DNA from: Herminiimonas sp.
GTDB lineage: Bacteria > Pseudomonadota > Gammaproteobacteria > Burkholderiales > Burkholderiaceae
Length of the DNA: 17,349 nucleotides
Direction: 5' to 3'
NCBI GenBank assembly: GCA_014377155.1
Contig: JACMQD010000059.1
Span: forward strand, 1 to 17,349
Both the position numbers and the translations under genes were made by a program. Of this stretch, positions 2,990 to 4,159 are shown piece by piece. The notes under the pieces are model-generated. The model was not told the DNA's origin. It made no database searches and saw only the letters and a program-made list of their open reading frames with translations. The first letter of the stretch is position 1. Every line of letters starts with the position of its first letter.

Positions 2990-3145
2990 ATGCTGCTTTG
3001 GCTCGCGCAATATTTTCAGCAAGAAGTCGGCCCTCTACGGGTCTTCAATTTCATCACTTTTCGCGCGGTCTTCGCGACCTTGACCGCACTGGCCATCGCC
3101 CTGATTGCCGGGCCAGCGGTGATTCGCAAGCTGGCGCGCATGTAA
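2990..3145 (+). CDS. mraY: MraY N-terminal fragment, ended by an in-frame TAA
   Basis: This 51-codon reading frame starts at ATG 2990 behind a good ribosome binding site (GGAAGG, 2976-2981) and one base after the murF stop. It begins MLLWLAQYF and has a hydrophobic segment at about residues 24-45 (ending IALIAGPAVI), which matches the start and first membrane segment of MraY. It stops at TAA 3143-3145, immediately after LARM. The same frame resumes after the stop as the rest of MraY, with no shift and no missing codons. Counted through the stop, the gene would encode 389 residues, the usual betaproteobacterial length. Either this is the 5' part of an interrupted mraY, or the stop is a sequence error and 2990 is the true gene start. 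Confidence 0.75.
   Translation: MLLWLAQYFQQEVGPLRVFNFITFRAVFATLTALAIALIAGPAVIRKLARM
3143..3145 (+). other. In-frame TAA inside mraY (codon 52)
   Basis: The expected family sequence here is M-K-V-G-Q-A-V-R; the DNA reads ATG TAA GTC TGC CAG. From an AAA ancestor, one A-to-T change at 3143 creates the stop. A second change, G to T at 3149, turns the conserved Gly codon GGC into TGC (Cys). From an AAG ancestor two changes in the codon would be needed. Frame and codon number are kept on both sides, so this is a substitution and not a net indel. The observation is direct; the ancestral codons are inferred from remembered family sequence. Confidence 0.9.
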
Positions 3146-3157
3146 GTCTGCCAGGCA

Positions 3158-4159
3158 GTGCGCTCGGACGGACCGCAAACCCACTTGATTAAAAACGGCA
3201 CCCCTACCATGGGCGGCGTGCTGATCCTGATCGCCATCGGGATTTCGACCTTGTTGTGGGCCGATCTCAGTAATCGCTTCATCTGGATCGTGCTGGTAGT
3301 GACGCTCGGCTTCGGCGCGATCGGCTGGGTCGACGACTATCGCAAGGTGGTCTACAAAGACCCGGAAGGCATGAAGTCGCGTGAAAAGTATTTCTGGCAG
3401 TCGTTGATCGGCATCGTCGCCGCACTGTATCTGGCTTTTTCGGTATCCGCGCCTACCAACACCAAGGTATGGGAATTGTTTACCGCTTGGGTGCAATCGG
3501 GACTGAGCATGGACCTGCCCCCGAAGGCCGATTTGATCGTGCCGTTCTTCAAGACCATCAGCTATCCGCTGGGCGTGTGGGGCTTTATTGCGCTGACCTA
3601 TTTCGTCATCGTCGGCACCAGCAATGCGGTCAACCTGACCGATGGTCTGGACGGCCTGGCGATCATGCCGACAGTGATGGTCGGCACCGCGCTGGGCATC
3701 TTCGCATATGTGACCGGCAACGCGATTTATTCCAAATACCTGTTCATCCCGCATATTCCGGGCGCGGCCGAGTTGATCATTTTCTGCGGTGCCATGGCCG
3801 GTGCCGGACTGGCCTTCCTGTGGTTTAACGCGCATCCGGCGCAGGTGTTCATGGGTGACGTCGGCGCACTGGCGCTGGGCGGCGCGCTGGGTACCATCGC
3901 CATCATCGTGCGTCAGGAAATCGTGCTATTCATCATGGGCGGCATCTTTGTCGTCGAGACACTGTCGGTGATGATGCAGGTGGTGTATTTCAAATACACC
4001 AAAAAACGTTTCGGTGCGGGTCGTCGCATTCTGCTGATGGCGCCGCTGCATCATCATTTCGAGCAAAAAGGCTGGAAAGAAACGCAAGTCGTCGTGCGCT
4101 TCTGGATCATCACGATGATGCTGGTGCTGTTCGGCCTGTCCACGCTGAAGCTGCGCTGA
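3158..4159 (+). CDS. mraY: MraY main body (lipid I synthase), open after the internal stop
   Basis: This 333-residue frame can start at GTG 3158, 12 bases after the internal TAA. It carries nearly all of phospho-MurNAc-pentapeptide transferase, the membrane enzyme that moves phospho-MurNAc-pentapeptide from UDP to undecaprenyl phosphate to make lipid I. In full-length numbering the aspartate pair of GWVDDYRK is D115-D116, NLTDGLDGL follows in the middle, FMGDVG has D290, and the HHH of MAPLHHHFE is at 354-356; all known active-site features are present. Multiple hydrophobic segments fit a polytopic membrane protein. What is missing from a GTG 3158 start is the first membrane segment and the K-x-G-Q part of the first cytoplasmic loop. 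The ribosome binding site before 3158 is poor. The stop overlaps the murD start (ATGA). Confidence 0.9.
   Translation: MRSDGPQTHLIKNGTPTMGGVLILIAIGISTLLWADLSNRFIWIVLVVTLGFGAIGWVDDYRKVVYKDPEGMKSREKYFWQSLIGIVAALYLAFSVSAPTNTKVWELFTAWVQSGLSMDLPPKADLIVPFFKTISYPLGVWGFIALTYFVIVGTSNAVNLTDGLDGLAIMPTVMVGTALGIFAYVTGNAIYSKYLFIPHIPGAAELIIFCGAMAGAGLAFLWFNAHPAQVFMGDVGALALGGALGTIAIIVRQEIVLFIMGGIFVVETLSVMMQVVYFKYTKKRFGAGRRILLMAPLHHHFEQKGWKETQVVVRFWIITMMLVLFGLSTLKLR

Follow-up and report, generated by a model that had tools for sequence, protein, structure and literature searches.

A premature in-frame stop in mraY of a Herminiimonas metagenome contig, probably a local consensus error

The mraY frame and its setting in the dcw cluster

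The closest described counterparts of the gene considered here are the mraY genes of Oxalobacteraceae (protein P0001, loci L001 and L002), which have 389 codons, lie between murF and murD and encode the MraY signature. The locus lies in a contig stretch of 17,349 nucleotides (hereafter the window, meaning the whole stretch that was analysed). It resembles these genes in length, position and signature, with 90-94% identity 3' of the stop described below, but none of the relatives examined has the window's stop at codon 52 or its cysteine at codon 54. For the part 3' of the stop, the closest of the 80 loci kept came from a Herminiimonas MAG (91%), followed by other Oxalobacteraceae, and the closest listed MraY protein was 94% identical.

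Open reading frames and Pfam matches identify a dcw cluster in the window, comprising murE, murF, mraY, murD, ftsW, murG, murC, ddl, ftsQ, ftsA and ftsZ, in which the exact Mur names are presumed from gene order. Located 3' of this cluster are a redoxin gene, lpxC, dciA (on the minus strand) and an M23 peptidase gene, identified in the same way. The features needed here are as follows.

1612..2988, plus strand: murF, the intact upstream neighbour, with Mur ligase domains (a longer form of the open reading frame spans 1453-2988)
2990..4159, plus strand: mraY reading frame, 389 codons when read through one in-frame stop (from the sequence, Pfam matches 3' of the stop, and relatives)
3098..3100, plus strand: GCC, codon 37, Ala in place of the Gly of relatives, a milder private change (from relatives)
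3143..3145, plus strand: in-frame TAA at codon 52, where relatives encode Lys (from the sequence and relatives)
3149..3151, plus strand: TGC, codon 54, Cys in place of the Gly of relatives (from the sequence and relatives)
3158..4159, plus strand: open frame 3' of the stop with GTG as a possible restart codon, 333 amino acids (from the list of open reading frames)
4159..5652, plus strand: murD (product P0121), the intact downstream neighbour (from its open reading frame, Pfam and a protein match)

The murF start is presumably at 1612, since it overlaps the murE stop codon there. One base separates the murF stop from the mraY ATG at 2990, and the final mraY stop, TGA at 4157-4159, overlaps the murD ATG. 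An earlier note, made from the sequence alone, had placed a TAA at codon 52 in the frame of ATG 2990 and had described that frame as running on to 4159 without insertion or deletion; the sequence bears out both statements. Read through the stop, the gene matches 119 of the 120 best-listed MraY proteins in length. The 333-residue part encoded 3' of the stop matches both MraY_sig1 and Glycos_transf_4 above their curated cut-offs. An uninterrupted frame containing helix 1 and the conserved Lys-Val-Gly-Gln stretch was not found, as TAA occupies codon 52 and a Cys codon occupies codon 54. The earlier description of the site was right about the TAA and incomplete in its reasoning, which took in neither the codon 54 change (position 3149 was named only among the proposed checks) nor the one at codon 37.

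Conservation of the affected codons and constraint on the gene

Relative loci were found with the part of mraY 3' of the stop, and the best 80 were kept; the protein set consisted of the 120 best-listed MraY proteins minus P0100 (388 amino acids), leaving 119. Codon 52 specifies Lys in all 80 loci (AAG in 67, AAA in 13) and codon 54 is GGN, for Gly, in the same 80. Both residues are invariant in the 119 full-length proteins, as is Gly at position 37, where the window has Ala. In the aligned solved MraY chains 8g01, 8tlu and 9zno, Gly 54 is kept and position 52 is Ser, Ser and Gln, respectively, so Lys 52 is not universal. Judged from these alignments, the stop exceeds ordinary divergence.

The two radical changes are six bases apart. 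When 4589 columns from 12 genes and 58 loci were scored, the worst three were FtsA codon 35 and mraY codons 52 and 54. The chance that two of three random columns fall within two codons of each other is 0.0024, a figure from a test picked post hoc. The presence of both mraY codons among the three worst columns, two codons apart, suggests that the changes at codons 52 and 54 are probably one event. As a control, private changes at otherwise invariant columns were counted in each of the 119 proteins: 96 have none, 18 have one, two have two, two have four and one has five; these are uninterrupted proteins only and so are uninformative on stops. The window's mraY has three, all within codons 37-54. 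The largest outlier of all 4589 columns, FtsA codon 35 (window 11244-11246), encodes Ala, compared with His in 50 of 52 relatives and Tyr in the other 2.

These data bear on two readings in which the gene works as it stands. The first is that UAA is read as an amino acid, through a suppressor tRNA or readthrough. The frame is exact, with no indel, and the gene is constrained, as this would predict. However, TAA also terminates ftsQ, lpxC (as TAATAA) and the M23 gene, three further genes in the window; no tRNA lies within the window, and no relative was seen with a stop at codon 52, each of the 80 loci having a Lys codon there. The change at codon 54 would also be left unexplained, and we regard such decoding as very improbable.

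According to the second, the ribosome stops at codon 52 and begins anew at GTG 3158, helix 1 and the remainder then assembling in the membrane as separate chains. This GTG is in frame, lies 12 bases 3' of the stop and opens 333 codons, and both radical changes fall inside the would-be untranslated gap, where they would be free to occur. That gap, however, removes Lys-Val-Gly-Gln-Ala (about codons 52-56), including the Lys and Gly that are invariant in 119 of 119 relatives. A ribosome-binding site needs a suitable spacing from its start codon, and the sole AGG 5' of GTG 3158 is two bases away, too close for a usual site. No searched relative is split likewise, the codon 37 change is left unexplained, and we know of no two-piece MraY; a split protein of this kind is scarcely to be expected. 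The one sign specific to readthrough, recoding or a split MraY is the position of both radical changes between the stop and the possible restart.

Apart from this site, the gene resembles its relatives. Pairwise dN between the window's mraY and ten relatives was 0.060-0.101, against a mean of 0.093 among those relatives; dN is thus not raised, and no period of relaxed constraint is visible in mraY. Departures from invariant columns numbered 7/1304 in the other 11 genes and 5/190 in mraY, an excess that counts against full constraint. Two of the five mraY positions are variable in the larger protein sample (260 in 36/119 and 305 in 4/119), leaving only codons 37, 52 and 54 as departures. Invariant-column counts did not extend to lpxC and the M23 gene, for which 3 and 0 loci were available. 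No further lesions were seen in the window genes checked. The view that the cluster shows no general decay is supported by the 7/1304 departures, the unraised mraY dN and the Pfam domains in the neighbouring genes. A decaying pseudogene was considered and rejected, as dN is not raised and the gene has one stop and no indel.

A further reading is a chimeric contig, in which the parts 5' and 3' of the stop come from different organisms. Mean identity to the 119 relatives is 0.826 before the stop and 0.906 after it (0.882 and 0.887 for P0001 against the others), a gap that is biased because the relatives were found with the part 3' of the stop. Against a junction, P0001, P0002 and P0038 rank near the top whichever part is compared, the two parts have similar GC3 values (0.69 and 0.77), and frame and length are exact across the stop. 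We consider a chimera highly unlikely.

mraY copy number and broken copies in related genomes

We surveyed 392 genomes from the family of the genome that holds locus L003 (G003). A match to P0001 was present in 380, all of which were inspected; up to four candidates per genome were scored in the protein search that listed 150 of the 380. No second full-length mraY was found in the 380 related genomes at the thresholds used, so the earlier statement that mraY is normally single-copy holds in relatives. Extra matches were pieces of the same gene or distant partial matches at 38-39% (G015, G056). Some genomes had second matches at the DNA level; in these the protein search gave one match each, except in five, whose two matches were pieces of one gene.

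This result bears on the reading that ranks second after a consensus error, namely a very recent, real multi-base lesion, carried by a dying cell or strain or by one that an intact second mraY rescues. One mutational event can yield two clustered substitutions, so the changes at codons 52 and 54 could have such an origin, and an mraY that is otherwise constrained and complete is what a fresh lesion predicts. On the other hand, the lesion would be lethal unless another copy covers it, the 380 related genomes hold no second full-length gene, and most of the sampled strain must carry the lesion for it to appear in the consensus. A real lesion is therefore unlikely, though less so than the readings weighed above.

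The same survey provides a base rate for apparent breaks. Of the 380 related genomes in which mraY matched, the gene is frameshifted within one contig in three (G147, G208 and G238), and none shows a clean in-frame stop with the rest of mraY unbroken. The only stop reported inside a match was one TGA in G238; the local alignment there has no stop in residues 1-260, so the TGA sits at the frameshift and not at codon 52. The gene in G090 is also broken, but its locus contains 45 Ns and was not counted as a frameshift. In four genomes (G094, G229, G091 and G191) mraY is split between contigs, and six have partial matches (G051, G222, G073, G272, G278 and G284), of which those in G051, G073 and G272 fall short of codon 52.

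Short N-terminal MraY proteins numbered 41, of which 19 were read; six are of 77 amino acids. Five of the 77-residue proteins (P0246, P0249, P0250, P0263 and P0264), from contigs of at most 145 kb, diverge from the frame at various residues and share an out-of-frame stop. Like the window, these five and the three frameshifted genomes show an essential gene apparently broken within one contig; they differ in that their breaks are frameshifts elsewhere in the gene, whereas the window has two substitutions with an in-frame stop. The frameshifted copies and the 77-residue pieces indicate that apparent mraY breaks recur in public assemblies, with no clean in-frame stop seen among them. Two other short proteins, P0245 and P0252, end in LSLIHI and DRKSVV, which we take to resemble translated adapter tails. 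Locus L049, on a contig whose title names an Alistipes senegalensis MAG, has an mraY of Burkholderiales type (82%) and shares its N-terminal stretch with the Oxalobacter locus L050; it probably comes from a mislabelled or mixed bin.

Origin of the stop

Among database proteins, the MurD of the window (P0121) occurs on one contig alone, which is 17,349 bases long, so that the window is a whole contig. No other listed MurD exceeds 78% identity to it; no independent sequence therefore backs the stop. The same species was not found elsewhere, the best genome by score being 84% identical at the DNA level (392 searched, 380 matched, 150 listed). The listed protein matches include MurD P0121 but neither piece of the window's mraY, which may have been omitted from the contig annotation as a pseudogene. 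A 21-base stretch had no exact match in viral contigs, and no close plasmid or phage copy was found: the 29 plasmid records that matched did so at 60-80% identity, and the single phage match spans 39 bases. A mutation templated from within the window was considered and rejected, as a 15-base stretch has no second match there at up to three mismatches. The portion of the literature on mraY premature stop codons available to us held nothing plainly on natural mraY nonsense mutations.

Together, these observations suggest that the stop is most likely an error of the consensus, confined to one spot of a single metagenome contig. Reads that were wrong or too few at one spot would introduce the two neighbouring substitutions, at codons 52 and 54, together; such reads are inferred, not observed. 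The organism's real mraY would then be complete, and an ordinary member of the dcw cluster. The earlier note had listed a base error, a real lesion complemented elsewhere, readthrough or suppression of UAA, and a downstream start. We favour the base error because the two private changes are adjacent, the contig has been seen once and the gene is otherwise constrained; for readthrough or suppression, no specific sign was found.

Some observations count against an error. Wrong bases seldom reach the consensus of well-covered Illumina contigs, and no other lesion was seen in the genes checked. Because clean in-frame stops were not seen in the 380 related genomes, in which the breaks are frameshifts, gaps and contig ends, the error would be of an uncommon type. 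It would also be indistinguishable from two real substitutions arising side by side in one cell lineage. A stop that proved real and tolerated would imply an unusual route to making or replacing an essential cell-wall enzyme; as a consensus error, it illustrates how an essential gene may look broken on a single contig from a metagenome.

Substitutions in Illumina metagenome reads cluster in one data set, according to the part of PMC4787001 available to us, which quotes earlier findings that associate GGC and inverted repeats with errors; the paper's own preference is for motifs ending in GG over folding. The window's sequence near 3149 gives no more than a hint of such an error: GGC directly precedes position 3149 on the minus strand, and positions 3148-3158 form a 4-bp hairpin, such as 3.6% of random substitutions would create.
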